A stretch of DNA of 46,952 nucleotides from a virus. The notes beneath the pieces are model-generated. The model worked only from the letters and a program-made list of their open reading frames with translations, was not told the origin of the DNA and did not search any database. Made by a program: the position numbers and the translations under genes. This document shows, piece after piece, positions 1 through 46,952 of this stretch (positions are counted from its first letter, which is position 1; each line of letters begins with the position of its first letter). The DNA is taken from the IMG/VR virus record IMGVR_UViG_3300046312_000177, positions 1 through 46,952 of that record; one strand, written 5' to 3'.

Positions 1-127
1 AATCCCCGACCCTTTCCTAAAACAAATACCTCCTTTAATATTTAGAGATTTAAACTTTACACTTCCCAAGTCCTCCTCGCACTCTAAATTTCCATCAAAA
101 TTGTCTAGGTTAACCTGTCCGATGTAG
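1..127. repeat. Terminal direct repeat, left copy
   Basis: Bases 1-127 are identical to 46826-46952. The overlap is exactly 127 bases, a k-mer length used by common short-read assemblers, so I read it as the closure overlap of a circular or circularly permuted molecule rather than a biological terminal repeat. A true 127-bp terminal redundancy cannot be excluded from sequence alone. The left edge coincides exactly with the edge of a 147-bp repeat that also lies at 45411-45557, so the closure passes through a repeated sequence. Confidence 0.9.
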
Positions 128-180
128 TTATTATTCTCGTCTAGTTGATCTTTTGTTATTAAATGTTTTTTCATTTTCAT
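1..180 (-). CDS. Hexapeptide-repeat solenoid protein A, N-terminal part (gene split by contig ends)
   Basis: This is the first 60 codons of a gene that continues in frame at the other end of the record (46825 down to 46529), giving about 158 residues in a closed circle. The N-terminus is nearly identical to the paralogue at 45042-45602, including the segment NNNYIGQVNLDNFDGNLE and the following acidic and GSVKFKSLNIKGG stretch. The start is ATG at 180 (a second in-frame ATG is at 174), in an A-rich leader with no Shine-Dalgarno sequence. It lies at the promoter-proximal end of the early operon, after two small genes. The function is unknown; the C-terminal repeats suggest a beta-solenoid. Confidence 0.8.
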   Translation of the reverse strand, partial: MKMKKHLITKDQLDENNNYIGQVNLDNFDGNLECEEDLGSVKFKSLNIKGGICFRKGSGI

Positions 181-209
181 TTTTTTTAAGGTTGTTAAAT
201 TATTCATTT

Positions 210-533
210 TTATTCAAAATATACGCAAATAAAGCAGTTATGACCACAATCTGGCTTAAAATGATAGTCTTTTGTTACTTGTAAAAACACCTCTTTTTGT
301 AATTGAATAAGTCTAGCTACCAATTCATCTGCAAATTTGTTGCCAGTGTTTTGGTTTGAGAAATCAAAATCATTGAATGATTCAATTTTCATGAAGAAAG
401 CGATTGCCTCTTGCTCATTCTCGTCAAATTCATCGTCAAACATTTCGAGTAATAAATCTTCTGCTATTTGTGCATCTTTCTCACTATACCAGTCAGAAGT
501 GTCTGTGCGAAATTCATATTTAAATTCTTTCAT
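210..533 (-). CDS. Small acidic protein of unknown function
   Basis: A 107-residue protein that I do not recognise. Its N-terminal half is strongly acidic, with a run of Asp and Glu around residues 20-43, and the C-terminus carries CGHNCFIC (two cysteine pairs), which could bind a metal or simply be reduced thiols. It has no signal peptide or membrane segment. It is the second gene of the early minus-strand operon, between the 96-residue gene at 562-852 and solenoid protein A. The leader before its ATG is A/T-rich without a Shine-Dalgarno sequence, like its neighbours. Small acidic first-operon proteins in phages are often host-interaction or anti-defence factors, but nothing here shows that directly. 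Confidence 0.65.
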   Translation of the reverse strand: MKEFKYEFRTDTSDWYSEKDAQIAEDLLLEMFDDEFDENEQEAIAFFMKIESFNDFDFSNQNTGNKFADELVARLIQLQKEVFLQVTKDYHFKPDCGHNCFICVYFE

Positions 534-561
534 ATTTTTTTATTTTTTAAGTTAATATAAG

Positions 562-852
562 TTATTCTGAAATTGCCAATAGGTCGCTATATTTGAATTT
601 ATCGCCTTCAAGACCTAATTCGTTTGCAACGCGTATCACACAACCTATTGCCATATCATAAAAAGAACTGCATCCTTCCCTATCAACAATACTAAAATCC
701 CAATAATCCTCCGCGTAATATTTAACGGAATAATCATTGCCAAGTTCTGATTGATTTAGGATATAAACTTTTGCGGAGGTGGTAGAATCATTAATGTATA
801 ACCTTAACTCGCCATTTTTTGGATTTGTCCATTTTTTTATTCTTGTTTTCAT
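562..852 (-). CDS. First gene of the early operon, unknown function
   Basis: A 96-residue protein with no family I can name. It has a basic N-terminus (MKTRIKKW), a central aromatic stretch (KYYAEDYWDF) and a hydrophobic helix-like segment (DMAIGCVIRVANELGL) near residues 66-82. It sits directly behind the duplicated promoter at 853-942, so it should be the first message made from this promoter. At 45803-45892 the same promoter stands in front of a different, unrelated small gene, so the promoter was duplicated while the first gene was not. No signal peptide or transmembrane segment is visible. Confidence 0.7.
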   Translation of the reverse strand: MKTRIKKWTNPKNGELRLYINDSTTSAKVYILNQSELGNDYSVKYYAEDYWDFSIVDREGCSSFYDMAIGCVIRVANELGLEGDKFKYSDLLAISE

Positions 853-942
853 ATTTATTTATTTTTTAGTTATTATTTATAGCTAACTGCTATTTCTTTA
901 GGTTACATGATATAAATATAAGTGTCAACTATTTATTTTACA
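853..942 (-). promoter_or_regulatory. Early promoter and leader, copy 1
   Basis: About 90 bp that match 45803-45892 with about six differences. Read on the minus strand it has a perfect TTGACA (complement of 923-928) followed by an A/T-rich stretch and ATGTAACCT. AGTTGACAC and ATGTAACCT form an imperfect inverted pair 13 bases apart, which could be an operator. I see no canonical TATAAT at 17 bases, so the exact -10 is uncertain. The leader ends in AAATAAATAAATATGAAA, with no Shine-Dalgarno sequence. Confidence 0.6.
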
Positions 943-1030
943 TATTTAATTAAATATTAATAAATTTTATTAATTTGTACATTTTTGACCTAATTATTTT
1001 TACATATAAATTAATATAGTGTAATTTATT

Positions 1031-1062: not shown

Positions 1063-1090
1063 AATTTAACTTTAACTTTTTCTATTAAAA

Positions 1091-1729
1091 ATGAACAAAA
1101 ATGAATTAAAGAAACTAAGAATTGACATTGTAGTTCGCTGGAAGAGGCGTTTGGAAGGTAAAAATATCAGTGAAATCTCAAAAATGTCTGGAATAAGCAG
1201 AGCTTTCCTATACCGTGCAATGAATGGAGCTTCAATGCCTAGCCTCAAAACTATAAATAAAGTGGAGGAGGCTATAAAAAATTATGAGCAAGAAACTAAG
1301 AGAATTGAAGATATCTATAGAATGCATTTTAGATTGATTGATACTCCAAAAGGGAAAGATGATGCATCCGTATATCACATCACTGACTATAATGTTCATG
1401 TAGTTCCTGATAATCTTGAAAATATTGAGGGTGGAGTTTATGTTCTAAATGATTTTGAGCCAAAAAACCTTAAGCATATAAAGAAACAATGTTTTATTTT
1501 GAAAAATACCAAATTTCACGCGCCTAATTTAGAAACTATTGAGGGCTTTCTTCTCATTCAAGAAAATGTTATTTTTGACGCTCCAAAGTTAAAATATATA
1601 GGGGGTAATATAACTATAAGGCATGGCACAATATTTAATTGCCCAAACCTAGAAGAGGTTGAATATATAGATTTAGATTATATTGACGACGATGATTTAA
1701 AAATAAAATTAGGTAAATTAAGGAAATGA
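1091..1729 (+). CDS. XRE-type HTH protein fused to a leucine-rich-like solenoid
   Basis: A 212-residue protein. Residues 1-70 look like a Cro/XRE-type helix-turn-helix: the segment ISEISKMSGISRAFLYRAMN has the spacing of helices 2 and 3. From about residue 107 to 195 there are imperfect repeats of about 22-23 residues of the form PNLExIEGxxxIxxnxxF, as in NLENIEGG, NLKHIKKQ, NLETIEGF, KLKYIGGN and NLEEVEYI, which suggest a leucine-rich-like beta-solenoid. It is the first gene right of the divergent control region, so it is the best candidate for a regulator of the late or early arm. The fusion of an HTH to a solenoid is unusual; the solenoid may sense a protein ligand. There is no recognisable LexA/CI peptidase domain. 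Confidence 0.75.
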   Translation: MNKNELKKLRIDIVVRWKRRLEGKNISEISKMSGISRAFLYRAMNGASMPSLKTINKVEEAIKNYEQETKRIEDIYRMHFRLIDTPKGKDDASVYHITDYNVHVVPDNLENIEGGVYVLNDFEPKNLKHIKKQCFILKNTKFHAPNLETIEGFLLIQENVIFDAPKLKYIGGNITIRHGTIFNCPNLEEVEYIDLDYIDDDDLKIKLGKLRK

Positions 1730-1947: not shown

Positions 1948-2399
1948 AGAAAATGACTAAAAAGAATCCAAAAGGAGCTGGAGGAAGACCGACTTTAATG
2001 ACTGAATCTGTTGTTGCTAAACTCAAAGAGGGGTTTGCACAAGGTTTTAGTATTGATAACGCTTGTATTTGGGCAAATATATCACCAAATACTTATTATG
2101 ATTATTGTAAGATAAATCCTAAGTTTTCACAGTATTGTAAAGCTCTACAGAAAAAACCCTTGATAAAATCAATAGTTGTAATCAATAAAGCCTTGGATGA
2201 AGGCGATGTTTCAACCGCAAAATGGTATGCTGAAAGGAAAGGAAAAGATGAATTTAGTTTAAGAAATGAAATTACGGGTGAGAATGGTGATCCTGTGAGA
2301 ATAGTATATATTGATAAAGAGGAAAAGGAAGCCTACGAGAAACATATCTACGAAGTAATTAATGGACCTGAAAATAACGAAAATAACGAAAAATCTTAA
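1944..2399 (+). CDS. terS: Terminase small subunit
   Basis: A 151-residue protein of the usual size for a small terminase, which recognises phage DNA and loads it on the large subunit. The N-terminus has the GAGGRPT motif and then an HTH-like region (ACIWANISPNTYYDY, about residues 41-55), followed by KPLIKSIVVINKALDEGD and a WYAERK segment typical of phage small terminases. The C-terminal tail is acidic and Asn-rich, consistent with a large-subunit contact. It lies directly ahead of a small ORF and the large terminase. I chose the ATG at 1944, which overlaps the stop of the preceding gene; an in-frame ATG also occurs at codon 4. Confidence 0.85.
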   Translation: MKKMTKKNPKGAGGRPTLMTESVVAKLKEGFAQGFSIDNACIWANISPNTYYDYCKINPKFSQYCKALQKKPLIKSIVVINKALDEGDVSTAKWYAERKGKDEFSLRNEITGENGDPVRIVYIDKEEKEAYEKHIYEVINGPENNENNEKS

Positions 2400-2472
2400 C
2401 CCTTGTAAATAAAGGGGTGAGACAGGTTGCCGCATCGCACCAAGACAAAATAAAATTAAAGAAGAGAAGAGT
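2400..2472 (+). other. Short intergenic stretch with small hairpins
   Basis: Between the small terminase and the next ORF lie CCCTT(2400-2404)/AAGGG(2412-2416) and GGTG...CACC pairings in a locally GC-richer stretch. There is no T-run, so I do not call a terminator. The location next to terS would fit a packaging-site candidate, but nothing here proves it. Confidence 0.25.
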
Positions 2473-2679
2473 ATGAATAATATAAAGAAACTGGAAGATT
2501 TAGGATTTAGGATTTCAGAATGTTCTATTGAAAAAATTAAAGTAGCAGGATTTAAGAAGAGACTTAAGTTCACCATGATATTGGAGCAGGATAGCAATAA
2601 TTCACAAGGCAATATACCAGAAAAAACATTAGAACGAGTTGGCAACAATATCCTTAAAGCTTTACGGATTTTATATTAA
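2473..2679 (+). CDS. Small protein between the terminase subunits
   Basis: A 68-residue protein, MNNIKKLEDLGFRISECS at the N-terminus, with mixed charge and no membrane segment. No family recognised. Its stop codon overlaps the start of the large terminase (TAATG), showing translational coupling. The alternative, that it is spurious, is made less likely by this tight junction and by the lack of any other gene filling the gap on this strand. Confidence 0.65.
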   Translation: MNNIKKLEDLGFRISECSIEKIKVAGFKKRLKFTMILEQDSNNSQGNIPEKTLERVGNNILKALRILY

Positions 2680-5508: not shown

Positions 5509-6238
5509 AGCTCTTGAAGTTCAATATTTCCGCTATTTATTGAGCATTTTATCAAAAATCAACGACACTTTTAACAGTATTGTATTGCCTGTTGTTAAAC
5601 AACCAGAAGAAATTCAAGATAGCCAATTATTATCGTTAGAGGACGCTTTAAAGGCATTTGAGCTTAAGGTAAATTTGAGTGTGCCACCAAAAAAGATCAA
5701 GAAAATTGCAAGTGATGTAACCAACAGGAATGTCAAAAGAAATAAGAAAGTCTGGCGAGATAAGTTAAATCCTTCGTATTTTGGCGTTAATATTGCAAAA
5801 AAATTATCTTTTGAAGGGGAGCAAGATTATATCAAGTCCAGAATTAGCACCAACACTATCTTGATAACCAAGATGAAAGATGAATATATGGACCAACTGA
5901 ATGTGCTTGTATTGAATAAGTACCAGAAAGGTACTACTAACAGACAATTAGCGAAGGAATTAGAAAAACAATTTGGGATCAACAAATCCAAAGCCAAACT
6001 AATCGCTAGAAATGAAACGAAGAATACCAACACCCAACTAAATAATAAGCAGGCTCTTTCTTTAGGTTTTTCTAAAGCAATATGGCTTGGTAGTGAAGAT
6101 GAAAGAGAGCGAGAGCAACACAACAAGCATAATAACAAAGAATATGCTATTGGCGTTGGACTGCCTGACGGAGATGGTGGCAAAGAACAACCAGGCGATG
6201 CAATCTTGTGTAGATGCACTTTTTATATCAATGTTTAA
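5480..6238 (+). CDS. Minor head protein, Mu F-like
   Basis: About 252 residues. The C-terminal half carries the hallmarks of the Mu gpF / SPP1 gp7 minor head family: KAKLIARNETKNTNTQ, an arginine- and His-rich stretch with EREQHNKHNNKEY, and a final CRCTFYINV. These proteins bind the portal inside the prohead and assist assembly or DNA ejection. I place the start at the ATG at 5480 rather than an upstream TTG at 5468; both lie inside the end of the portal gene. Its order, portal then F-like then DUF2213, matches related phages. Confidence 0.8.
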   Translation: MKLIPPKTSKALEVQYFRYLLSILSKINDTFNSIVLPVVKQPEEIQDSQLLSLEDALKAFELKVNLSVPPKKIKKIASDVTNRNVKRNKKVWRDKLNPSYFGVNIAKKLSFEGEQDYIKSRISTNTILITKMKDEYMDQLNVLVLNKYQKGTTNRQLAKELEKQFGINKSKAKLIARNETKNTNTQLNNKQALSLGFSKAIWLGSEDEREREQHNKHNNKEYAIGVGLPDGDGGKEQPGDAILCRCTFYINV

Positions 6239-6308
6239 AAAATAGTTTGACTTTGTGAAAATAAGATTTATAGATTTGAAATTAAACAATGATTACTCTA
6301 ATTAAATT

Positions 6309-7355
6309 ATGATTATTCAAGATCAAATAATATTTGATGGTGTTACCAAGAACGCGACAATAATGCGTGATGGTATTTACCATTATTTAGGTCGCGAGGT
6401 TGGAGATTTTCAGAACCCTAGTAAGATAGTTAGAGTTTTTAGAGATAGATCAGAAATAGAGAAGGCTTATAAAAGATTTCTAGATTTACAAAGAATTCCA
6501 TTAACGGTTAATCATCCAAAAGACTTTATAAGTCTTGAAGATGAAAATTCTTATAATCAAGGAATAGCAATTGATCCATCTACAAAGATGGTAAAGGATT
6601 TCAAGGTATTAAATTGTAGAATTGATTTAAAAGATCAAGCTCTAGAGTATTATAGCCAAGGAAAAAAGGAGCTATCCTGCGGTTGGAGTGGTAGTTTTTC
6701 CAAAGTAGAGCATAGTGATTATGATTATACCCAACATTTTGAGGATTTTAATCATATAGCTATTTTACCAAATGGACGAGGTGGATCACTTTGTTCCATA
6801 ACTGATAATAATTTAAACATTTTAAACATGGATATTGACGATTTGAAATTAACAATAACAGACACTATTAAGTCTGTGTTAGATGAATACGCTCCTAAGA
6901 AAAAGAAAAAAGCTAAGTCCCAAGAAGGCGAAGAAGGTGAAGAAGGCGAAGATTTAAAGAAGAATAATGATGAGTTGGTTGAAAAATTAGCAACCGCCAT
7001 TCATTCTTTAAAATCTGAACAAGTTGAACAAGTTAAAGAAGTTGATGAGGTTGCGATTAAAGATGAAGCAGTAAAAGAAACAATCAAAGACTTTGATTGT
7101 GTTCTTAAAGCCATTGAAAAAGGAGCTATTGAGGTCAAGGATTGCTTGGGCAAATCACCTTTGGAAATTAAAAAGCAGGTTGTAAAAACTATTGCTAAAA
7201 AAGAAATTGAAGACAGCAAAATTGATGCTTATTTCGATATTTCTCTCGAGAATTTTAAACATCCTTCTTGGGAGAAAAAAGCAAAAATTGTGGACCAAGA
7301 ATCTGAAAAGACTCTTGTCTCACTAATTAACAATATTAACTTTTTAGATAAATAA
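6309..7355 (+). CDS. DUF2213-like head maturation or scaffold protein
   Basis: A 348-residue protein. The N-terminal 165 residues match the DUF2213 pattern: a Thr/Arg-rich start with MIIQDQIIFDGVTKNATIM, the segment PLTVNHPKD (near residues 62-70), then KKELSCGWSG and an HIAILPNGRGG stretch. DUF2213 proteins occupy the protease/scaffold position in this phage type. Residues 195-215 are a low-complexity charged linker, Lys-rich then Glu/Gly-rich, and the rest is helical and charged as expected for scaffold. The gene lies before the cement and major capsid genes. Whether the protein is catalytic cannot be told from sequence alone. Confidence 0.78.
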   Translation: MIIQDQIIFDGVTKNATIMRDGIYHYLGREVGDFQNPSKIVRVFRDRSEIEKAYKRFLDLQRIPLTVNHPKDFISLEDENSYNQGIAIDPSTKMVKDFKVLNCRIDLKDQALEYYSQGKKELSCGWSGSFSKVEHSDYDYTQHFEDFNHIAILPNGRGGSLCSITDNNLNILNMDIDDLKLTITDTIKSVLDEYAPKKKKKAKSQEGEEGEEGEDLKKNNDELVEKLATAIHSLKSEQVEQVKEVDEVAIKDEAVKETIKDFDCVLKAIEKGAIEVKDCLGKSPLEIKKQVVKTIAKKEIEDSKIDAYFDISLENFKHPSWEKKAKIVDQESEKTLVSLINNINFLDK

Positions 7356-22666: not shown

Positions 22667-24946
22667 ATGTCTTCTTCCATAATAACGCAAACAACGGTAT
22701 TCAATCCAGCACTAAAAACTCTTGATTTCTCTGCTTGGACTGCCCCTGCGTTTGACCCTAGAAAATTACTCGCTGTTATTAACAAGTCACAGAATCCAGA
22801 TGTTATAATGTATAGGGTACTTGGTGGCACTGGTCTTGAAGGTACTTTTACCACGAATATTGTAACACTTGATCTAGATACAACCAGTTTTAACGCTTCT
22901 GACATTTTAGAGATACATTATGGAGATGATGCAACTGCGACTTTGCAAAGTCAACAAAACACTTTAATTGGTGCAGTAAATGAAACCGTCCCAACAAACG
23001 ATACCGATAGTAGTGGTATTAACGGTCGTTTGCAAAGAATAGCTCAAAATATTACTACCTTAATTAGCAGAATTCCATTATCATTAGGGCAAAAAGCAAA
23101 AGACTCAAGCCTTGCTGTTACCTTATCAACCGAGGACATAGCAGTTCTAGGCTCTCCTTTTCAAGCTGGTGGAAGCATTGGCAACACCTCATTTATTGCG
23201 AACGCAGGCACTAATCTAAATACCTCTGCCTTGGCTTTAGAAGCTACACAATCTACCTTAGTTACAAATCTAGGCTCTCCTTTTCAAGCTGGTGGCAATA
23301 TAGGAAATACCTCTTTTAAAGCTCAATTGCAAGATAATGCTGGAACTCCAGTTACTCTTGGACAAAAAGTAGCGTTAAGTTCAATTCCAGTAGTTTTAGC
23401 TTCTGATCAAAGCTCAATACCGACTACTTCAACTTTAAATGCAGAAACAAATAAGGTAATTGGCGTTGTTAGAAATTCAGACGGCACAGGTAACTTATTA
23501 AGCTCCACTGGAAATGCTTTAGACATTAATATTAAATCAGGAAGCATTGGCAATACTTCTTTTACAGTAAATAATGCGAATGGAGCTTCAGCCGTTAATA
23601 TTCAGGACGGGGGAAATTCAATCACAGTTGACGCCTCCGCCTTACCTCTTCCCGCAGGAGCTTCAACTTCTGCACTACAAACTTCTGGGAATACTAGTTT
23701 AAGTAATATTAATGTTAATTTGGGTTCTATTTCTGATGTTGTAGCACCCAATGATACTGGCAACTTTAGCATAATTGCTTTTATCAAAAGAGCCTTGCAA
23801 AACTGGACTTCTTTATTAACTGATAAAGTGATTATTGGACAATCGGCTCAAACTGCTATTGTTAGTAATATATTGAATAACCCTTCTAGTGGCGTCTGGA
23901 CTGATTGCAGTGGCTATTGTTCTGCAAAAGTAGCAATTGTCGGAGGGGCAAATGCAGCGGGAAGGTTGATTTTTGAAGGGTCTATGAATGCGTCAACGGC
24001 TTTTGATATTGTCACCTATAGATCTGATCTAAAAGAAGGTGGAAAAATTGGATTATTTCCTTCAGAAGATTTAAACATTGGAGGAATCAGTACATTTGAC
24101 ATACCTATTAATTTTCCATTTATCCGATTAAGAATTGCTGATACTCTTGGAGCTAGTATTCAAGCAACTATTACCTTAAAAAGATCTGAATTTAATCCTA
24201 AACAAGAAGGTGATAATTATCATTTTGGTACTGCTCAATCAGCTGTAACTAGTAATATACTAACTAGAACAACCTTAGCCCTACCGTTTCTTGACTGTAG
24301 TGGCTTTAATTCGGCTATGGTTCAAATCAAATCAACTGGCACTGGAGGAACTTTTAGATTTACTGCGTCAAATTATGAAACTGATTTTAACCCAATCCCA
24401 GTATATAATCAGTCCACAGGTCAGCTTATTGCTTCACCTATAACCGCTGTACCTTTTACTACTTCTTATAAATTTCCTATTGAATTTATAAATTACAGGC
24501 TCGAAATTGTAACGCCAATCACGGGAGGGGCAATTCAAGCATTTACTAGATTATCGACCAAACCATTTTCTGCAACTAAACCTAAAGAAATAAGTCCATG
24601 GAATGCAAGTGTTCTATTGGGAAGTCTTATAGGCAATAGCACTTTGGTAAAATCTGCTCCAGCTTCTGGTTTAAAAAATTATATCACTTCAATTCAAATT
24701 GTAGGTACAAATACGGGTGTAATAGTTGGTATTGCCCTTATTAGCAATGGAGTTTCAATATGGCAAGGTGTATTGCCTGTTGGTCTAGCTTCTACACCAA
24801 TGATAATTAATGCGATATTTGATACTCCTATTGCTGGAGAAGTTGCAACCTCAATTACTTGTTCTAAAGTGACTCCTGGTACTGTTACGGGCATTGCTGC
24901 CGCAGGAAACCTGATGCTCAATGTTCAAGGCTATATTTCTTCTTAA
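22667..24946 (+). CDS. Large tail fibre protein with GNTSF repeats
   Basis: The largest gene, 759 residues, in the fibre region. Its middle part has repeated SPFQAGGxIGNTSF motifs (around residues 164 and 205) and a further SIGNTSFTVN, separated by about 40-100 residues. The C-terminal 120 residues, rich in Gly, Ser, Thr and Ile, end in GIAAAGNLMLNVQGYISS, resembling receptor-binding domains that end in a beta-rich tip. The repeats suggest elongation of the shaft by duplication. No chaperone or peptidase domain was seen. Confidence 0.72.
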   Translation: MSSSIITQTTVFNPALKTLDFSAWTAPAFDPRKLLAVINKSQNPDVIMYRVLGGTGLEGTFTTNIVTLDLDTTSFNASDILEIHYGDDATATLQSQQNTLIGAVNETVPTNDTDSSGINGRLQRIAQNITTLISRIPLSLGQKAKDSSLAVTLSTEDIAVLGSPFQAGGSIGNTSFIANAGTNLNTSALALEATQSTLVTNLGSPFQAGGNIGNTSFKAQLQDNAGTPVTLGQKVALSSIPVVLASDQSSIPTTSTLNAETNKVIGVVRNSDGTGNLLSSTGNALDINIKSGSIGNTSFTVNNANGASAVNIQDGGNSITVDASALPLPAGASTSALQTSGNTSLSNINVNLGSISDVVAPNDTGNFSIIAFIKRALQNWTSLLTDKVIIGQSAQTAIVSNILNNPSSGVWTDCSGYCSAKVAIVGGANAAGRLIFEGSMNASTAFDIVTYRSDLKEGGKIGLFPSEDLNIGGISTFDIPINFPFIRLRIADTLGASIQATITLKRSEFNPKQEGDNYHFGTAQSAVTSNILTRTTLALPFLDCSGFNSAMVQIKSTGTGGTFRFTASNYETDFNPIPVYNQSTGQLIASPITAVPFTTSYKFPIEFINYRLEIVTPITGGAIQAFTRLSTKPFSATKPKEISPWNASVLLGSLIGNSTLVKSAPASGLKNYITSIQIVGTNTGVIVGIALISNGVSIWQGVLPVGLASTPMIINAIFDTPIAGEVATSITCSKVTPGTVTGIAAAGNLMLNVQGYISS
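23146..23295. repeat. 27-bp repeats in the large fibre gene
   Basis: Bases 23146-23172 and 23269-23295 are identical over 27 bp and lie 123 bp apart, in frame. Flanking sequence has drifted, so the duplication is older than the exact core suggests, or the core is maintained by conversion. Confidence 0.8.
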
Positions 24947-24980
24947 TTACTAATTTTATCAATTCTAAACTTAAAAAAAA

Positions 24981-25328
24981 ATGACAAAAAACTACAACGC
25001 AACTCTTGGAATACCATATGTTAAAACCTTTAATATCAATTTTGACTATTCATGCTATGATAATAGGGAGGTGGCTTTGTCTGTTACAGAAACCATGGGC
25101 ATAAAAGATTCACAAGGCAAATATCTTGATATTTCAGGATTATATTCTGATTCTTTTTCAGAATTTATTACAACAAATGAAATGGATAACACAACATTTC
25201 CTTTAATTAATGTTGACACTGGGGAAGAAACAGAGCAAACAATGACAATAAGAGAGATGAACCAAGTTCTTATATCTTTTGTTAGAAAATATCAAAAAGA
25301 AAGAGATAACCCAGTAGTTACTAACTAG
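24981..25328 (+). CDS. Unknown protein after the fibre gene
   Basis: A 115-residue protein with an N-terminal beta region and a C-terminal helix (IREMNQVLISFVRKYQKERD). It lies between the large fibre and the NlpC/P60-like gene. I do not recognise a family. Its ATG follows a run of A residues, as in most genes here. Confidence 0.55.
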   Translation: MTKNYNATLGIPYVKTFNINFDYSCYDNREVALSVTETMGIKDSQGKYLDISGLYSDSFSEFITTNEMDNTTFPLINVDTGEETEQTMTIREMNQVLISFVRKYQKERDNPVVTN

Positions 25329-25347
25329 ATAATCCAGTAAGCTAACT

Positions 25348-25875
25348 ATGGAAGACTTTTCAATCTTAACAGTATCATCCCCTTTTAGGTTTAAAACTTT
25401 ATTTACTAAACCTTTAAAATATATTATACAAATATTCACAGGGGACGCTTCAGAACACGCAGCGAAATATCAGAAAGGATTTGTAATGAATGTATCAGGA
25501 AAGGGGTTTGAGAAAATCCCTTTTGATAAGTGGATGGAGCGTTACTCTGTTAATGGTGCAAAAATACATGAATATATATTGCCCTATAAATTAACACCTC
25601 ATCAAGAAGAGCTTATTGATGCTTTTGATAATAAATGTCTTGATAAAAATTACGATGTCCCCGCTGCCATGCTATCAGTTTTTGACGAGATAAAATTTAT
25701 TAGAACTCTGATCAAAAGATTTAGAAAAGAAGAGAAGGGAATATTTTGTTCACAACAAGCATTTTCTAGTTTAGTTGCTGGTGGTATATTTCCACCACAA
25801 CAGGATTTAGTAAGTCCGTCAGAGCTAAAGAAGATGTTAATCAAGAAAGGATGGGAAAAAAATAAGATATCATGA
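25348..25875 (+). CDS. NlpC/P60-like papain-fold protein, circularly permuted type
   Basis: A 175-residue protein. It has TGDASEHAAK near residue 31 (with His37 as catalytic-type residue) and GIFCSQQAFSSLVAGG from residue 131, with Cys134. The order His first and Cys later is the circularly permuted NlpC/P60 (YiiX-like) arrangement. Such proteins hydrolyse amide or ester bonds in peptidoglycan or lipids. Whether it acts in lysis or in host-envelope entry is unclear; it is separated from the M15 endolysin by several membrane genes. Confidence 0.65.
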   Translation: MEDFSILTVSSPFRFKTLFTKPLKYIIQIFTGDASEHAAKYQKGFVMNVSGKGFEKIPFDKWMERYSVNGAKIHEYILPYKLTPHQEELIDAFDNKCLDKNYDVPAAMLSVFDEIKFIRTLIKRFRKEEKGIFCSQQAFSSLVAGGIFPPQQDLVSPSELKKMLIKKGWEKNKIS

Positions 25876-26486
25876 CCAAAAAAGGCTTTCTTCATAAGTT
25901 AATTTGCCCAGTTGTTAGCTCGTTAACAACAATGATTGCAATATTACTAATCTTTGTAGCTTGTATCCTTCCATTCATCACTAGCCAAGCTTTAAAGCAA
26001 AGTCAGTCAGTTGATTTGATAACTAAAGAAGTGGATAAAATAATAAATAATTGTGGTAAAGATTTTAGAGTTAGCTGGATTGTTGTAGATCCGAACAAAA
26101 AAATATACAAATTTCACGATGTTAGGGGTCTAAATGCCGATTCATCAGCTATAGTAAGCTCTAAAAATCCTGAATTAAATCCGTTTTATTCTAAAACACA
26201 CAAAATTGATCCTGTTACATTCTCATTTTTAGACAAATTTGATAATGGAGCAGCTGGATTCTATCCTGAAATTTCGTTTTTTAATGATAAAAAATCAGCT
26301 AGAGATATGATTTCTTCTTCCAATAAAATAATATTTAAGGTTGGTATTTCTGTTACCAAAAATATATTTAATAATATGGTTTATGTCTTTATAGCAACAA
26401 TAACAACCGATAGTTACAATACCTGTAGCAAAGATGATATTGTTAGGCATCTGGAGGATCTATCAATTTATGCTAAGGGGATATAG
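25872..26486 (+). CDS. Membrane-anchored protein of unknown function
   Basis: A 204-residue protein with one hydrophobic segment near the N-terminus (about residues 13-38, MIAILLIFVACILPFITS region) preceded by a basic stretch, so it likely has an N-in anchor and an exported domain. The rest is soluble, beta- and Lys-rich, with no motif I recognise. It overlaps the previous gene by 4 bases and the next by one. It may be part of the envelope-acting cassette with the neighbouring proteins. Confidence 0.6.
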   Translation: MTKKGFLHKLICPVVSSLTTMIAILLIFVACILPFITSQALKQSQSVDLITKEVDKIINNCGKDFRVSWIVVDPNKKIYKFHDVRGLNADSSAIVSSKNPELNPFYSKTHKIDPVTFSFLDKFDNGAAGFYPEISFFNDKKSARDMISSSNKIIFKVGISVTKNIFNNMVYVFIATITTDSYNTCSKDDIVRHLEDLSIYAKGI

Positions 26487-26722
26487 TGAGTCAATGGCTA
26501 ATTAATAACCTTTGGGAAATATTATTACTAATAATTGGATGCATATTTGGGTTAATTAAATTCAACTATACATTGTTTAATAGGGTTATTAGAACAGAAA
26601 TTGAGAACAACAATCTAAAATTGAAGTCTGAAATAAAAAATGATTTTGAAACAAAAATTGAAAAACATATTAGACATGAAGTTAGGAATCAAATCTCTCT
26701 TGAGAAGACTAGGGATCATTAG
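26486..26722 (+). CDS. Small membrane protein with cytoplasmic coil
   Basis: A 78-residue protein with a GTG start overlapping the previous stop. A hydrophobic segment (LWEILLLIIGCIFGLIKF, residues 9-26) is followed by a charged helix (EIENNNLKLKSEIKNDFETK), typical of a single-span membrane protein. It could be a holin-like or regulatory protein of lysis; with one span, a class III holin is possible. The gene is in a lysis-type region but the function is not shown by sequence. Confidence 0.55.
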   Translation: MSQWLINNLWEILLLIIGCIFGLIKFNYTLFNRVIRTEIENNNLKLKSEIKNDFETKIEKHIRHEVRNQISLEKTRDH

Positions 26723-31881: not shown

Positions 31882-32325
31882 TCAAAAAGGCACGGAGTCA
31901 TCCATCTCAAACTCTTTAGCCTTTTGATTATCAAAAGCCTCTTCAATCTGATTAAACCCCTCCTCGTCTTGTTTTGGTTGTGGCTTACTTCCCAACATGA
32001 TTAACTTAGAGCCAAAACCTTGTAGAATTATCTTTGTAGTGTATCTTTCTATTCCTTCTTTGTCTGTGTACTTAGTTGTTTGCAAAGAGCCTTCTATGTA
32101 AAGCTTTGATCCTTTTTTAACATAGTTCTTGATAATACCAACCAAACCCTGAGAGAAAACAACGACATTATGCCATTCGGTTTTATCTTTTTTTTCACCA
32201 GTAGTTTTATCTTTCCAACTTTCAGTTGTTGCTAACGAGAAGCTAGCAATTTCTCTTCCATCTTGAGTTGATTTAATCTCAGGATCTTGACCGACATTAC
32301 CAATTAACTGTACTTTGTTTAGCAT
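31882..32325 (-). CDS. ssb: Single-stranded DNA-binding protein
   Basis: A 147-residue protein with the complete SSB pattern: LNKVQLIGNVGQDPE at the N-terminus, FSLATTESW, WHNVVVFSQ, YVKKGSKLYIEGSLQ and a C-terminal acidic tip, MDDSVPF, which recruits replication and repair proteins. It binds single-stranded DNA as a tetramer and works with RecT and the helicase. A remnant of a second SSB lies directly upstream (32460-32552). The AGATATTA-like repeats lie in the leader. Confidence 0.93.
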   Translation of the reverse strand: MLNKVQLIGNVGQDPEIKSTQDGREIASFSLATTESWKDKTTGEKKDKTEWHNVVVFSQGLVGIIKNYVKKGSKLYIEGSLQTTKYTDKEGIERYTTKIILQGFGSKLIMLGSKPQPKQDEEGFNQIEEAFDNQKAKEFEMDDSVPF

Positions 32326-32326
32326 T

Positions 32327-32482
32327 TTATTTAGATTTTAAGTTAATAATACTAGTCTTAAAAAGAAGATTTTTAAATCTTAATATCTTAATTTTTATCA
32401 ACAATAATTTTCTCTCTTTCTCTGACTTATCCACTTTATTTATAGCTTTATTAATGTAATTAATGTCTGCTTGATCTTTCAT
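32327..32482 (-). CDS. Small basic ORF ahead of ssb
   Basis: A 51-residue ORF from ATG at 32482, starting inside the SSB remnant in another frame and ending two bases before the ssb ATG. The N-terminal part, DQADINYINKAINKVDKSEK, looks coding; the C-terminal half is low-complexity Lys/Ile/Leu and may be non-coding leader. It may be a genuine small gene or part of the scar left by the remnant. Confidence 0.3.
   Translation of the reverse strand: MKDQADINYINKAINKVDKSEKERKLLLIKIKILRFKNLLFKTSIINLKSK
32376..32393. repeat. AATCTTAATATCTTAAT element in the ssb leader
   Basis: AAATCTTAATATCTTAAT resembles the TAATATCT repeats at 31846 and 41649. On the minus strand it lies about 50 to 70 bases ahead of the ssb ATG and could be an operator. 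Confidence 0.45.
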
Positions 32483-32552
32483 TTCCGTCTCGTGTTGCTG
32501 TAATTTTAGGGTCTTGACCTACTGAGCCAATTAATTGTACTTTGTTTAGCAT
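32460..32552 (-). pseudogene. N-terminal remnant of a second ssb gene
   Basis: Reading from ATG at 32552 the frame gives MLNKVQLIGSVGQDPKITAT and RDGNE, which align with the first 25 residues of the intact SSB (LNKVQLIGNVGQDPE), then stops after 30 codons. The DNA has diverged (GGC TCA GTA versus GGT AAT GTC), so it is the start of a different ssb allele rather than a fresh copy. It overlaps the 3' end of the gene at 32546-32923. Most likely a scar of allele replacement by recombination. Confidence 0.75.
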
Positions 32553-32923
32553 TCTATTTTTATAAATTGTTCAACCAAATCCACTATTCCTTTCTGGATA
32601 AAATCTCCTTTTTTATACAACAAAATTATAGCTTCATCATCAATTCCATACTCACTGCAAGATAACAAATAGCTGCCATCAATTAAATCGTTTCCGCCCT
32701 CTTTCAATTTGGCAACATATTTTTCTATGCATGAATAAAATCTATCAACATAAATTTTCTCATTTTCGTCATTCACTTTGAAAAAACCGTTTTTGTATTC
32801 CAAAGCATATAATAGATCATAATTATCGTCATCGTCTTGTAATTCCTTAAAAAAGGCTTTTTCTTGATCACTTAATGGATTTTTAGGTGTTAATCTCCCA
32901 GAATATCTTACATTGTGTCCCAT
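32546..32923 (-). CDS. Unknown early protein, 125 residues
   Basis: A 125-residue protein with an acidic middle (FKELQDDDDNYDLLYALEY) and a C-terminal GDFIQKGIVDLVEQFIKIEC. No motif recognised. Its stop codon overlaps the ATG of the ssb remnant. The pattern of Tyr, Asp and Glu suggests a small soluble protein. Function unknown. Confidence 0.55.
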   Translation of the reverse strand: MGHNVRYSGRLTPKNPLSDQEKAFFKELQDDDDNYDLLYALEYKNGFFKVNDENEKIYVDRFYSCIEKYVAKLKEGGNDLIDGSYLLSCSEYGIDDEAIILLYKKGDFIQKGIVDLVEQFIKIEC

Positions 32924-38194: not shown

Positions 38195-39152
38195 AAAATA
38201 AAGTTCCTTGCTTAATATGATCTTGATATCTTTCCTCTGATTTATCAAAATATTGCTTGTCAATTTCGCACGAAATAATATTTCGTTTCGTATTATAGCA
38301 AGCTATTCTATCCGTTCCACTGCCTAAAAACGGGCTAAAAACTAAATCATTTTCTTTTGTTGTGGTTAAAATCAGTTTTTCAATTACCGCTCCGTCTTTT
38401 GTGGTTGGGTGAAAACTTGATTTAACTTTTGCGTCAATTACATCTGTTAGTCTAAATTCATTGTTAAAAGGACGGCGTAAATCCTCGTATTCCTTTCGTA
38501 AATCCTCGTATTCCTTTCGTAAATCCTCGTATTCCTTTCGTAAATATTCGTTATTTAGATAATTTTTAACCTTTAAATATTGGTCTTTGGTCATAATATT
38601 TTCACCATTAAGCCAATTTGACACACAACCAGTCAATCCACCACTCGCACTTGGGAATAATTCTGAAATTTCTCTCTTGGTAATTTTTGCTTTTGCAAAT
38701 TCTCCTCTTAAATACTCCGCAAAAGGATTTGGCATAATCTTTTTAATCATCTCAAGACCTGTTTTATTTTTCCCTTTGTCGTAAAATAGAATCCTTTCAG
38801 TAACTGGTGGAAAACTATTAAAACAACTCAATCCTTTAACTGTCAGTGCATTAATTTTTCTATAAATAATACTGTTCAATAAATTAAACTTTTTATCAAA
38901 TTCCACTTGTAAATAAGCAATATTCTTCTCATCACCAAAAACAAACAAAGAACCATTATCGGCTAAAATTCTTTCAAATTCATCCCTTAGAAGTATATGC
39001 CAATTAATCCACTCTTGCATTGTTTTAAAAGCCCAATCAAAACCACCGCATATTTTAAAATAAGGTGAGTCGCAAATAATAAGATTAATAGATTTATCTT
39101 TAATCCTTTTCATCGTATCAAAGACATCTTCGTTATAGACTGTACTTATCAT
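38193..39152 (-). CDS. DNA methyltransferase (N4/N6 type)
   Basis: A 319-residue protein with DSPY at residues 28-31 (the catalytic DPPY variant of N4/N6 amino-methyltransferases) and FLGSGT at 275-280, the AdoMet-binding FxGxG motif, so the order is catalytic motif first, AdoMet motif last (beta class). A middle insert contains an HTH-like part (KREISELFPSASGGLTGCVS, residues 159-178) probably for target recognition, followed by three YEDLRKE heptads (about 204-226). It has no visible endonuclease partner and would protect phage DNA from host restriction. Confidence 0.85.
   Translation of the reverse strand: MISTVYNEDVFDTMKRIKDKSINLIICDSPYFKICGGFDWAFKTMQEWINWHILLRDEFERILADNGSLFVFGDEKNIAYLQVEFDKKFNLLNSIIYRKINALTVKGLSCFNSFPPVTERILFYDKGKNKTGLEMIKKIMPNPFAEYLRGEFAKAKITKREISELFPSASGGLTGCVSNWLNGENIMTKDQYLKVKNYLNNEYLRKEYEDLRKEYEDLRKEYEDLRRPFNNEFRLTDVIDAKVKSSFHPTTKDGAVIEKLILTTTKENDLVFSPFLGSGTDRIACYNTKRNIISCEIDKQYFDKSEERYQDHIKQGTLF
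38475..38545. repeat. 21-bp tandem repeat inside the methyltransferase gene
   Basis: Three near-identical 21-bp units encode YEDLRKE heptads in the helical linker just before the last AdoMet-binding region. The period of 21 preserves the frame, so unit number could vary without loss of the protein. Confidence 0.8.
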
Positions 39153-44016: not shown

Positions 44017-44709
44017 TTATATTTCGTTAATTTTTGGATTGCCAAATTTTCCCTGCTCATTGTGAGCATTCATTATTTTTTCTTGATCTATTTCTTGCTT
44101 AATATTCTTGTGTAAATCATCAATCAAACCAAGCCAGTCAATATTAGGATTAAATCCATAATTAATTTTTAGTAGTTTTTTAAAAATTTCTTTTCTTTCT
44201 TTGTGATTTGAATTATCTTTTTCTTTAGATTTATTTAAATCATCAGCATCACCCTCTAATCCAGTAACATCACCCTTAATATTACTAACATTTCCTCTAA
44301 TATTACCAATATTACCCTCAATATCAGTAACATCACCCTCAATATTACTAACATCACCCCTAATATAGGTAACATCATCCATAATATTACTAACATCACC
44401 CTTAATATTTGTAACATCACCTCTAATCCTACCAACATAACCCCTAATATTATCAACATCACCCCTAATATCAGTAACATTACCCCTAATATCAGTAACA
44501 TCACCTCTAATCCTACCAACATAACCCCTAATATTATCAACATTACCCCTAATATCAGTAACATCACCCCAAATATAGGTAACATCACCCCTTAATCCAG
44601 TAACATCACCCTCAATATCAGTAACATCACCCGTTATCTTGCTATGAATCCCATCTACTTTGATGCCGTCTTGGTAGTGGAAAATTTCTTTTAAGTTTTT
44701 CATATTCAT
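44017..44709 (-). CDS. Heptapeptide-repeat (GDVTDIR-type) protein
   Basis: A 230-residue protein. Residues 27 to about 153 consist of about 18 consecutive 7-residue repeats of the form GDVTxIx (such as GDVTDIR, GNVDNIR, GYVGRIR). The small residue at position 1 and a hydrophobic at 3 and 6 suggest a beta-solenoid or other repeat fold rather than a coiled coil. The N-terminal 26 residues and the charged helical C-terminus (about 155-230) flank it. An 84-bp unit within is duplicated in tandem. It has no homologue that I can name. It may bind a protein or polymer surface. Confidence 0.7.
   Translation of the reverse strand: MNMKNLKEIFHYQDGIKVDGIHSKITGDVTDIEGDVTGLRGDVTYIWGDVTDIRGNVDNIRGYVGRIRGDVTDIRGNVTDIRGDVDNIRGYVGRIRGDVTNIKGDVSNIMDDVTYIRGDVSNIEGDVTDIEGNIGNIRGNVSNIKGDVTGLEGDADDLNKSKEKDNSNHKERKEIFKKLLKINYGFNPNIDWLGLIDDLHKNIKQEIDQEKIMNAHNEQGKFGNPKINEI
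44251..44631. repeat. 21-bp tandem repeat array coding for the heptads
   Basis: About 18 units of 21 bp with a common core like ATCACCCCTAATATCAGTAA. An 84-bp block (four units) occurs twice in tandem (about 44412-44495 and 44496-44579) with hardly any change, pointing to recent unequal crossing-over. The unit is an exact multiple of three, so growth or loss keeps the frame. Confidence 0.85.
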
Positions 44710-44719
44710 TTATTTTTGT

Positions 44720-45025
44720 TTATATTGTTTTTATGTATTCAATAACCTTCTCTTTAACAATTTCGTAATTTTCGTCTTCTTCTTCAATCAAACAATGATC
44801 AAAATTAAAATTATCAAAATTATCAATAAAATCATCTAAAGCTCTACTTTTTGCCTCTTCAAAATCACGATCCGATATCTCTTCACATGAAACGAAACTT
44901 ATTTCCCCAACTTCTTCATAGTCTTTAACTGTCGGGTAATCTTGACAATACTGACTAATTAAATTATCAAAAGTTATTACAAATTCTTTTTTTAGATGAT
45001 CCGATAGTTCTAAATTATTTTTCAT
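44720..45025 (-). CDS. Acidic early protein
   Basis: A 101-residue, strongly acidic protein, with LDDFIDNFDNFNFDHCLIEE and EDENYEIVKEKVIEYIKT toward the C-terminus. Small, highly acidic early proteins can mimic DNA, but no specific motif is seen. It lies between two repeat proteins in the accessory operon. Function unknown. Confidence 0.6.
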   Translation of the reverse strand: MKNNLELSDHLKKEFVITFDNLISQYCQDYPTVKDYEEVGEISFVSCEEISDRDFEEAKSRALDDFIDNFDNFNFDHCLIEEEDENYEIVKEKVIEYIKTI

Positions 45026-45041
45026 ATTTGTTTATTTTTAG

Positions 45042-45602
45042 TTAATATTTATACTGTAATATTTCCGAGATAATAGGTCCTTTAGCTGTAATATTGCCTT
45101 TAGCTTTAATTTCTGCACCAGCCATTATTCCCCCATCAGCTGTAATATTATCAGCTTTAATATCCCGACCAGCTGTAATAGTCCCGCCAGCTATAATATC
45201 CCCATAAGAAAAAATATTCCTACCAGCTCCAATATACCCACCAGCTGTAATCTCCCCATCAGTTCCAATATCCCGACCAGCTGTAATATACCCACCAGCT
45301 ATAATATCCCCATAAGAAACAATATTCCCACCAGCTGTAATCTCCAACCCAGCTTCAATATCCCATTCAGCTCCAATATCCCCTGTAGCTATAATATACC
45401 CACCAGCTTGAATCCCCGACCCTTTCCTAAAACAAATACCTCCTTTAATATTTAGAGATTTAAACTTTACACTTCCCAAGTCCTCCTCGCACTCTAAATT
45501 TCCATCAAAATTGTCTAGGTTAACCTGTCCGATGTAGTTATTATTCTCGTCTAGTTGGCCTTTAGTTATTAAGTGTGTTTTCAAGTGTGTTTTCATTTTC
45601 AT
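45042..45602 (-). CDS. Hexapeptide-repeat solenoid protein B
   Basis: A 186-residue protein. The N-terminal about 60 residues (YIGQVNLDNFDGNLECEEDL and GSVKFKSLNIKGGICFRKGS) are shared nearly exactly with protein A. From about residue 64 to 180, 6-residue repeats of the form AGGxIx / AGRDIx follow (AGGYITAGRDIGTDGEIT and so on), with Ile at every sixth position. This is the pattern of a left-handed or bactofilin-like beta-solenoid. No enzymatic motif is seen. The function is unknown; such repeats could polymerise or mask a surface. It follows a 14-base gap after the gene at 45617. Confidence 0.7.
   Translation of the reverse strand: MKMKTHLKTHLITKGQLDENNNYIGQVNLDNFDGNLECEEDLGSVKFKSLNIKGGICFRKGSGIQAGGYIIATGDIGAEWDIEAGLEITAGGNIVSYGDIIAGGYITAGRDIGTDGEITAGGYIGAGRNIFSYGDIIAGGTITAGRDIKADNITADGGIMAGAEIKAKGNITAKGPIISEILQYKY
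45411..45557. repeat. 147-bp direct repeat shared with solenoid protein A
   Basis: Identical to 1-147 (and to 46826-46952 over its first 127 bases). It encodes the common N-terminal domain of the two solenoid proteins. In the closed circle the two copies lie about 1,415 bp apart in the same orientation, so recombination between them would delete the intervening genes and produce one fused solenoid gene. Confidence 0.9.
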
Positions 45603-45616
45603 TTTTTTTAAGGTTA

Positions 45617-45802
45617 TTAAAATTCGTATATTTCACCGCTAAATTCAAAATTCTTCTCGTCAATTTTATAAATCTTTTCTGGATTGGCTTTTATTGATTC
45701 TATCTCGTGCAGATCAACAATTTTACTAAGATAAGATTGATCAATAGTTTCAACTCTAGATTCATGGAAAATTGCATGAATAATTTGATTATTTATTTTC
45801 AT
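45617..45802 (-). CDS. First gene behind the second early promoter
   Basis: A 61-residue protein (MKINNQIIHAIFHESRVETI at the N-terminus) with mixed charge and a beta-like C-terminus (KNFEFSGEIYEF). No family recognised. It stands directly behind the second copy of the early promoter (45803-45892), so it is an equivalent of the unrelated gene at 562-852, and is followed by solenoid protein B. Confidence 0.6.
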   Translation of the reverse strand: MKINNQIIHAIFHESRVETIDQSYLSKIVDLHEIESIKANPEKIYKIDEKNFEFSGEIYEF

Positions 45803-45892
45803 ATTTATTTATTTTTTAGTTATTATTTATAGCTAAATGCTACTTAGATAGGTTACATGATATAAATATAAGTGTCAACTGTTTATTTTACA
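45803..45892 (-). promoter_or_regulatory. Early promoter and leader, copy 2
   Basis: Matches 853-942 over about 90 bp with about six differences, including the perfect TTGACA (complement of 45873-45878), the imperfect inverted AGTTGACAC/ATGTAACCT pair and the A/T-rich leader ending at the ATG of 45802. It therefore starts a second early transcription unit inside the accessory block. Confidence 0.62.
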
Positions 45893-45917
45893 ATTAATAA
45901 ATAAATTATCTTTTTTG

Positions 45918-46058
45918 TTAAAATCCCATACACTTTCTGTATTGAACATTGTTAAATTTCCTACAATTCTGATCCGACTTATTGATTGAGAAAAGAACGA
46001 CGAAAATCAACAAGAAGCATGCAATAGAAAATGTTGATCTTTCTAAAATTTTGTTCAT
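45918..46058 (-). CDS. 46-residue membrane protein
   Basis: An ORF from ATG at 46058 that overlaps the stop of the previous small ORF (ATGA). It reads MNKILERSTFSIACFLLIFV then a short hydrophobic end and a basic tail with two Cys (NKSDQNCRKFNNVQYRKCMG), so a single-span membrane protein with an outward or cytoplasmic Cys-bearing tail. The coupling supports a real gene. It is the last of a chain of four. Confidence 0.55.
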   Translation of the reverse strand: MNKILERSTFSIACFLLIFVVLFSINKSDQNCRKFNNVQYRKCMGF

Positions 46059-46225
46059 TTTAAGTCTGATAAAAATTTTATTTGATTTTCCCTGTTTTTG
46101 TAAAATCTTCTAAAAGAACGGCGTTTAATTCCCGTTAAGATTCTTTCTGCTCTAAATTCACAATGAAAATCTTTCTTTAATATAAATTTTATTATATTCT
46201 TTTCTCTCCATGTAAATATTTTCAT
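46055..46225 (-). CDS. 56-residue basic protein
   Basis: An ORF from ATG at 46225, overlapping both neighbours by 4 bases (ATGA). It reads MKIFTWREKNIIKFILKKDF, continues with ERILTGIKRRSFRRFYKNRE and ends KFLSDLK. It is highly basic and could bind nucleic acid or membranes. The overlaps on both sides are good evidence for translation, but the function is unknown. Confidence 0.55.
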   Translation of the reverse strand: MKIFTWREKNIIKFILKKDFHCEFRAERILTGIKRRSFRRFYKNRENQIKFLSDLK

Positions 46226-46341
46226 TCAACAGTAATTAATTTTTGATATATTTCTTGAAAAACAAGAAAATCTAAGTTTGAATAATTTTTATATAATAAA
46301 TACAATGCTATTTTTTCCTCTACTCTAAATTTTAGTTCCAT
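46222..46341 (-). CDS. 39-residue protein with a strong ribosome site
   Basis: An ORF from ATG at 46341, preceded by GGGAGGAAAAATG, the best Shine-Dalgarno in this part of the window. It reads MELKFRVEEKIALYLLYKN then FLVFQEIYQKLITVE. It overlaps the end of the gene at 46332 and the start of the next small ORF. Function unknown; the strong ribosome site argues that it is made. Confidence 0.6.
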   Translation of the reverse strand: MELKFRVEEKIALYLLYKNYSNLDFLVFQEIYQKLITVE

Positions 46342-46526
46342 TTTTCCTCCCTATTAATTTTATTATAAATACAGGCGACTTCATATAAATTCATTGGATT
46401 TGTTAAGGCTTGGAAAATACATTTAACGCTATATTTCCTAGCAACCCTTATAATCTTAAAAGCCACCAAAAAAGGTAATTTCCTCTCTGATAATTTTTTT
46501 GCTATTAAATTTTCTACTCTTTTCAT
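46332..46526 (-). CDS. 64-residue basic protein
   Basis: A 64-residue protein, MKRVENLIAKKLSERKLPFL at the start, basic and helical, with an aliphatic segment (FLVAFKIIRVARKYSVKCIF). It lies directly after solenoid protein A and heads a chain of four small overlapping ORFs. No family recognised. Confidence 0.6.
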   Translation of the reverse strand: MKRVENLIAKKLSERKLPFLVAFKIIRVARKYSVKCIFQALTNPMNLYEVACIYNKINREEKWN

Positions 46527-46528
46527 AT

Positions 46529-46952
46529 TTATTTATTTATTGATTTCACAACCCCAGAAAAAACGACTCCTTCGGATATTCTTTTTGCCGTTATATCTCC
46601 TCTAGCTGTAATCTCCCCACCAGCTATAATCTCCCCACCAGCTATAATCTCCCCACCAGCTCTAATATTGCCATCAGCTTTAATATCCCAACCAGCTCTA
46701 ATATTCCAAGCAGCTATAATATTCCCATCAGCTGTAATATACCAACCAGCTCTAATATACCCATCATTTGTAATAATATCCCCGCCAGCGTAAATCAGTT
46801 CAGCTATAATACTCTTTTTAGATTTAATCCCCGACCCTTTCCTAAAACAAATACCTCCTTTAATATTTAGAGATTTAAACTTTACACTTCCCAAGTCCTC
46901 CTCGCACTCTAAATTTCCATCAAAATTGTCTAGGTTAACCTGTCCGATGTAG
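46529..46952 (-). CDS. Hexapeptide-repeat solenoid protein A, C-terminal part (gene split by contig ends)
   Basis: The record's end cuts the gene; the part from 46826 to 46952 is the same DNA as 1-127, and the gene really continues at 128-180. The part unique to this end (46529-46825) encodes about 98 residues of 6-residue repeats such as YAGGDIITNDGYIRAGWYIT and AGGEIIAGGEIIAGGEITAR, with Ile or Tyr-Ile at every sixth residue, then a short C-terminal tail. The three-fold AGGEII copies come from near-exact 18-bp DNA repeats (46607-46657), so the array is still changing. Like protein B it is probably a beta-solenoid of unknown function. Confidence 0.75.
   Translation of the reverse strand, partial: YIGQVNLDNFDGNLECEEDLGSVKFKSLNIKGGICFRKGSGIKSKKSIIAELIYAGGDIITNDGYIRAGWYITADGNIIAAWNIRAGWDIKADGNIRAGGEIIAGGEIIAGGEITARGDITAKRISEGVVFSGVVKSINK
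46607..46657. repeat. 18-bp tandem repeat in solenoid gene A
   Basis: Three nearly identical 18-bp units (core ATCTCCCCACCAGCTATA) encode consecutive AGGEII hexapeptides. The identity suggests recent expansion. Confidence 0.8.
46826..46952. repeat. Terminal direct repeat, right copy
   Basis: Identical to 1-127. When it is removed the closed circle is 46,825 bp, and the split solenoid gene becomes one continuous ORF across the junction, which supports closure. Confidence 0.9.

Follow-up and report, generated by a model that had tools for sequence, protein, structure and literature searches.

What could a phage gain from carrying, at the head of its early genes, two copies of one leader that each precede a repetitive solenoid protein? 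This question is raised by the window analysed here, namely, the complete stretch of 46,952 nucleotides that forms IMG/VR record IMGVR_UViG_3300046312_000177. It belongs to a myovirus-like phage whose host is probably a member of the Bacteroidota. The block of interest lies across the contig junction and opens the leftward replication/recombination arm, which encodes O-like, DnaB, methyltransferase, ExoVIII, RecT and SSB proteins. We tentatively interpret the block, with a confidence that falls a little short of even, as an early accessory segment with a duplicated module, in which a leader is followed by one or more small genes and by a solenoid protein with a constant cap and a variable surface. 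The anatomy of the module is strong, and its function is what we infer.

Both leader copies lie on the minus strand and are presumed promoter/operator regions. Copy 1 (843..942) is 5′ untranslated sequence that ends with the start codon of a 96-aa gene, and copy 2 (45793..45892) ends with that of a 61-aa gene. The copies are 93% identical across 100 nt, and the repeated stretch takes in the start codon and a few codons of each following gene. The 28-mer core TTGACACTTATATTTATATCATGTAACC occurs exactly twice, once per leader, and no occurrence is expected even with three mismatches. In module 1, the first small gene (562..852, minus strand, 96 aa) is an open reading frame with an A-rich start region and no family match, and the second (210..533, minus strand, 107 aa) encodes an acidic protein (net charge −15) with weak matches only. 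The small gene of module 2 (45617..45802, minus strand, 61 aa) is likewise an open reading frame with no family match. The preliminary description had recognised both modules but omitted four additional short ORFs between solenoid gene A and leader 2 (45918..46526, minus strand; 64, 39, 56 and 46 aa), the 64-aa member of which has no family match above the cut-off. An acidic protein of 101 aa (44720..45025, minus strand; net charge −18), with no convincing family, is encoded directly downstream of B.

The solenoid gene of module 1 crosses the contig junction. Solenoid A is a protein of 167 aa, with the frame open from 207..1 into 46952..46529 on the minus strand; the 5′ part (1..207) encodes an N-terminal cap that matches the family profile, and the 3′ part (46529..46952) encodes the hexapeptide beta-solenoid and the C-terminus, with 46826-46952 repeating positions 1-127. 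Solenoid B (45042..45602, minus strand) has 186 aa, comprising the cap and about 19 hexapeptides. The AlphaFold2 model of B is a single continuous all-beta solenoid predicted with confidence (pLDDT 94.5, pTM 0.89). The hexads of the family follow I-x-A-G-x-G/D, a predicted beta-solenoid pattern, and the corresponding 18-nt repeats extend over 45106-45459 in B and 46557-46856 in A. The residue periodicities, 6 in A, 6 in B and 7 in the adjacent heptad-repeat protein, were reached by none of 2,000 composition-preserving shuffles. The type-1 cap motif ITKxxLxxxNxYxGxxxxxxFDGxIExxxxLGxVxF, which defines the family, is present in both A and B, and the cap profile, which had A, B or their kin among its members, matched A at E about 1e-32 and B at E about 1e-37. 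The N-terminal domain proposed earlier as common to A and B was thereby recovered, both as this profile match and as an identical block of 147 bp, and the shared leader together with the shared domain confirms module copying in which the solenoid cargo differs.

This identical block, repeat R, encodes the constant N-cap and occupies positions 45411..45557 of gene B (minus strand) and positions 1-147 in A, with 100% identity and 0 differences. At the 7% divergence of the leaders, a block of 147 bp should contain about 10 differences, and the observed absence of any suggests recent homogenisation or recombination, possibly via the phage's own RecT/ExoVIII. The same block complicates the closure of the genome. 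The terminal overlap of the contig is 127 bp, with occurrences starting at 1, 45411 and 46826, and sits within R; closed by this overlap, the circle would measure 46,825 bp. Between the two R copies lies unit Y (1,268 bp, 45558..46825, no strand assigned), which contains the 5′ end of B, the 61-aa gene, leader 2, the short ORFs and the 3′ part of A. Circularity and the copy number of this 1.27-kb unit are unproven because the closing overlap is also present internally, in R. Judging by the repeat geometry, unit Y could be lost or repeated via recombination between the R copies. The double module may therefore be partly an assembly or population effect, in which some genomes comprise X and R only, others also contain unit Y, and the contig joins both. 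Such an origin would explain why the overlap that closes the circle recurs internally, and a sibling contig (3300046311_000331) stops at position 868, within the leader repeat. However, X-R-Y-R is the only single-circle arrangement using both parts once, the frame of solenoid A is unbroken through the junction, and unit Y contributes coding content of its own and could not by itself constitute a phage; we regard this explanation as unlikely.

The preliminary description had called the leaders duplicated promoters. The duplication stands, whereas the promoter identity found no backing in consensus scans, which stayed at background. Counts of sigma-70-like −35/−10 sites in the leader copies were inside the shuffle range, with no enrichment. 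Bacteroidota promoters carry a TTG near −33. The element near −7 in these bacteria is TAnnTTTG (PMC10309648). A site of the Bacteroidota type, TTG-N20-TATATTTA, was found in copy 2 only and with 1 mismatch, and about 100 such sites occur genome-wide, which is the background frequency. The operator search in the leader gave an imperfect dyad no better than those in shuffles (best dyad, p 0.24; 28-mer core, p 0.40). The reading of the leader copies as promoters is drawn from sequence and is unproven.

A plausible regulator of the leader is encoded divergently from leader 1 by the gene that opens the rightward, structural arm (1091..1729, plus strand). The product is an XRE-type HTH protein fused to beta-repeats: its HTH_3 domain scored 27.3 bits against the Pfam cut-off of 23, and the predicted structure, of moderate quality (pLDDT 67), shows helices followed by beta-repeats, in agreement with the HTH and repeat fusion reported earlier. 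The HTH part has a weak fold match to XRE repressors. It resembles XRE/CI-type phage repressors in its matches to HTH_3 and to phage regulator PHROGs, and in lying divergent from an early leader; it differs from CI-type repressors in its C-terminal beta-repeats, and no CI/LexA peptidase or dimerisation domain was found by Pfam or in the model.

A third repetitive protein (44017..44709, minus strand, 230 aa) consists of repeats and a charged C-terminal tail. Its 21-nt repeats (44176-44680) encode the heptad G-[DN]-V-x-x-[IL]-x 18-19 times, with the hydrophobic position kept in every copy. Sequence resemblance to phage repeat proteins with seven-residue repeats was observed, including fibritin, SPO1-like minor head proteins and UOF80481 of ctkAd229. 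Unlike phage heptad or coiled-coil proteins, the protein sits in an early arm and has a unique C-terminal tail, for which no relatives were found. Its PHROG/Pfam matches (minor head, fibritin, DUF7310 and PbeC) were read as low-complexity repeat similarity, and the likeness to phage coiled-coil proteins may be compositional.

By sequence comparison, A and B are members of a widespread phage family that is absent from Pfam, PHROGs and NCBIfam. When IMG/VR was scanned with the single sequence of B, no relatives emerged, and the cap DNA pattern was not found in other viral contigs. Profile searches detected two viral relatives, a profile led by the L008 locus reached 12 genome loci, and a class survey of 274 genomes gave a type-2 relative in 3 genomes only, one of them the query's own. 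PDB sequence matches to the family profile (9e5c and 5vj4) were rejected as compositional from their alignments. Relatives occur in phages and in contigs of bacteria or prophages that represent several phyla, which refutes the possibility, raised earlier, of decaying ORFs private to this phage. Unrelated phages and bacterial contigs combine the same cap with longer solenoids, which indicates that the family is maintained. In a set of 12 comparisons, shuffling gave p=0.001 for the likeness between the C-termini of A and of the ctKR88 relative. The relatives are mostly single-copy, and none of those examined had a second copy or the duplicated module. Their variability is concentrated at two hexad positions, x1 (mostly K/E) and x2 (mostly E/W/S/G/D), and the core residues I and A stay conserved; no lag-3 periodicity of these positions was visible. 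Selfish or neutral tandem-repeat ORFs, expanded by slippage and functionless, would also be expected to form a tandem array, as the solenoid DNA does, and the frame is broken within the array in the ctKR88 and L016 relatives. This origin is nevertheless very unlikely in our view, given caps whose protein sequences stay about 40-50% identical from one unrelated phage to another and repeat units in A and B that have diverged to 60-76% DNA identity with open frames and retained core residues.

Comparison with known systems yielded no functional assignment. The best structural match of B is a Caudovirales phage protein, A0A6J5SK54 (BFVD; E 2.4e-10, 39% identity, 246 aa), which has the same solenoid type and is uncharacterised, with no function recorded. 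The PDB fold search with B gave no match at E<=0.001. The hexapeptide part has weak profile similarity to the MinC C-terminal domain and FapA (PF03775 and PF03961), with A and B scoring 17-23 bits, below the cut-offs of 31 and 33.2, and neither protein has the MinC or FapA domain organisation. For left-handed hexapeptide transferases, no Pfam Hexapep match was obtained and GlmU/LpxA-like fold matches were weak (E>=0.2). Pentapeptide-repeat proteins of the MfpA/Qnr type form rigid rods with a beta-solenoid fold and bind a protein target; A and B differ from them in their repeat period of 6 rather than 5. The solenoid and heptad proteins might similarly mimic DNA and so titrate DNA-binding proteins of the host, in the way that gyrase is titrated by pentapeptide-repeat proteins, and the predicted rod-like fold and the strongly acidic 101-aa and 107-aa neighbours are in keeping with mimicry. 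Most relatives have a net charge per hexad close to zero (−0.64 to +0.25, with two exceptions of −1.0 and −1.2), A is net positive, and no Pfam pentapeptide-repeat match was found, which together make mimicry highly improbable. The PADLOC search returned weak partial or coiled-coil matches only. Of the host-takeover or counter-defence role proposed earlier, the position fits, but Pfam, PHROGs, NCBIfam and PADLOC gave weak coiled-coil or compositional matches only.

The early position itself is supported, both by the module at the head of its arm and by the location of the family, which is encoded in early regions for recombination/replication of phages or prophages. Relatives were found near RecT and an exonuclease (L013), Sak4 and an exonuclease (L016), RusA (L019), an exonuclease, RecT and a CI-like repressor (L022), and RusA/nuclease (ctKR88). 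Such neighbourhoods, seen within few genes of relatives with different caps, together with ExoVIII and RecT in the early arm here, could mean that the solenoids are not anti-host but auxiliaries of the phage recombination/replication machinery, e.g. a RecT/exonuclease or replisome scaffold. This alternative is rather unlikely, since unrelated accessory genes also commonly reside in these regions, the solenoids lack fused recombination domains, about 8 kb of other genes separate B from ExoVIII, and the neighbours of the Achromobacter relative (L024) resemble ordinary chromosomal genes, as judged by eye.

Under the preferred reading of an early accessory segment, the solenoids would be made early, would fold into rigid rods and would bind at least one host or defence protein. 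After duplication, the solenoids would have diverged while homologous recombination homogenised the cap, and two modules would give a single phage a pair of surfaces that it could reshuffle. A more far-reaching version, which we consider quite unlikely, is a recombining repertoire: RecT/ExoVIII would exchange or remove solenoid surfaces without breaking the frame via the identical cap behind near-identical early leaders, giving variant rods against host or defence targets, and the two variable hexad positions would constitute a readable surface code in the wider family.

Contigs often stop inside the repeat array, and because of such contig ends the family may be missed in assemblies. The family combines a clearly defined cap with a solenoid fold predicted with confidence, recurs beside recombination genes and has no entry in Pfam, PHROGs or NCBIfam, and the duplicated, homogenised cap suggests a route of diversification.

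The two termini of the 46,952-base contig overlap exactly by 127 bases; joined there, they would form a circle of 46,825 bases. Genes for TerS, TerL, portal, head protease, major head protein, tail sheath, tape measure and baseplate lie on the + strand from 1944, and those for a glycosyltransferase, an O-like initiator, DnaB, a DNA methyltransferase, ExoVIII, RecT and SSB on the - strand, thereby identifying a contractile-tailed phage whose divergent late and early arms meet at 853-1090. A Shine-Dalgarno-like 4-mer was found in only 6 of 53 genes and start regions are A-rich, which would fit a Bacteroidota host. An 83-nt direct repeat (80%) occurs at 32250-32332 and 32477-32559, with one copy over the SSB gene start and the other between SSB and the next upstream gene, touching the end of the latter, a layout that looks like a duplication of the SSB start. 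Near-perfect 21-nt tandem repeats were observed at 38476-38551 inside the coding region matching DNA methyltransferases.

Two leader segments (843-942 and 45793-45892) are 93% identical, and each enters the start codon of a different small gene; their 28-base core is shared without mismatch and is absent elsewhere (expectation zero). A 147-bp block, R, is completely identical at 1-147 and 45411-45557 and spans the N-terminal part of two - strand genes encoding solenoid proteins A (167 aa, across the contig junction) and B (186 aa, 45042-45602), with the solenoid arrays outside R being just 60-76% alike. These pairs bear out the module copying proposed in the preliminary description. At the 7% divergence of the leaders, approximately 10 differences would be expected in R and none was seen, which suggests recent exchange between its copies. 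The leaders had also been called duplicated promoters; position and conservation make this plausible, but promoter consensus scans gave no support. The 127-base overlap sits within R and hence has three occurrences in the contig, at 1, 45411 and 46826. With Y as the unit between R copies (45558-46825) and X as the remainder, X-R-Y-R is the sole single-circle arrangement using both parts once; mixed genomes, some with and some without Y, might also account for the assembly. A 25.8-kb sibling contig from another sample has ends mapping to 868 and 26639, and stops inside the first leader. Its positions 1-3000 are 98.7% identical to 23640-26639 and other compared stretches 99.97-100%, which makes 23.6-26.6 kb a stretch of locally higher variability.

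A hydrophobic residue recurs every six positions in 93% of A units and 84% of B units, a regularity matched by 0 of 2,000 shuffles. Structure prediction of B, using an alignment of two relatives, returned the anticipated solenoid fold (mean pLDDT 94.5, pTM 0.89), with a ladder of short strands unbroken from residue 34 to the end. Comparison of B with PDB folds yielded no match at E<=0.001, and in a viral structure library a single protein stood out clearly, an uncharacterised one from Caudovirales (E 2.4e-10, 39% identity).

A, B and their relatives fall outside all PHROG, Pfam and NCBIfam models; matches are only weak, chiefly to FapA/MinC_C below cut-off. The N-terminal cap encoded by R was detected by tblastn in the Manatee Spring podovirus ctKR88, and profile searches recovered relatives in two viral contigs and twelve genome-collection loci, so the shared cap does occur in other phages and the repeat proteins are not private to this one. 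The records that hold these loci are labelled Desulfobacterales, Acidimicrobiaceae, Verrucomicrobiales, Hyphomicrobiales, Proteobacteria, Nitrospiraceae, Elusimicrobia, Aquitalea, Paenibacillus and Achromobacter; the Paenibacillus locus L023 was left out of the count, as no solenoid ORF was extracted and a type-2 search of that genome found nothing. The DNA pattern of the cap had no match in other IMG/VR contigs. Caps are of two types, type 1 as in the window and type 2 starting like MKLT...NACxxG...WF...YQxVLdxLa...WLL. Most of the variation among hexads of the relatives falls at two positions: x1, with 80 E and 77 K among about 200, and x2, with E, W, S, G or D. At its C-terminus, A is similar to the Manatee Spring relative (p 0.001 by shuffling, in a set of twelve comparisons). 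In ctKR88 (6019-6410 of its locus) and L016 (5878-6646), the solenoid frame breaks inside the array and resumes in another frame, which may reflect slippage, phase variation or sequencing error. Five loci (L014, L017, L018, L020 and L021) start or end inside the array; assemblies therefore probably under-report the family. Searches of open-licence literature for solenoid or beta-helix early phage proteins, phage-encoded bactofilins and the repeat sequences turned up no paper that describes it in title or abstract.

Relatives neighbour RecT, exonuclease and DnaQ-like exonuclease genes (L013), Sak4 and exonuclease (L016), RusA (L019), exonuclease, RecT and a CI-like repressor (L022), or RusA, nuclease and YopX (ctKR88). 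This neighbourhood makes a role of the solenoids in phage recombination the main rival to a host-directed function. That the solenoids are DNA mimics is weakened by their near-neutral charge. A type-2 gene in Achromobacter kerstersii (L024, 5467-6498) lies in a locus that by eye looks chromosomal rather than prophage-like, and that genome holds another partial match elsewhere.

In the 230-aa heptad protein (44017-44709), a hydrophobic position is kept in every unit; its apparent relatives may reflect compositional resemblance, and none was found for its tail. In the 1091-1729 product, the HTH_3 match exceeds the cut-off and a model of moderate confidence places beta-repeats after this domain, in agreement with the proposed HTH-repeat fusion. 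Strongly acidic small proteins are sometimes DNA mimics, and two are encoded in the early segment (44720-45025, net -18; 210-533, net -15).

A dedicated host-takeover or counter-defence module had been proposed; the early-arm location agrees with this, but no result demonstrates counter-defence. The analysis establishes the duplicated blocks, the identical cap, the predicted solenoid fold, the family and the location. A single solenoid gene is present in every phage-like locus examined, and this phage is thus the only one so far with the double module. In the host-directed reading, the solenoid proteins would be expressed early, their surface would bind a host or defence target, and the phage's own RecT/ExoVIII would reshuffle solenoids through R.
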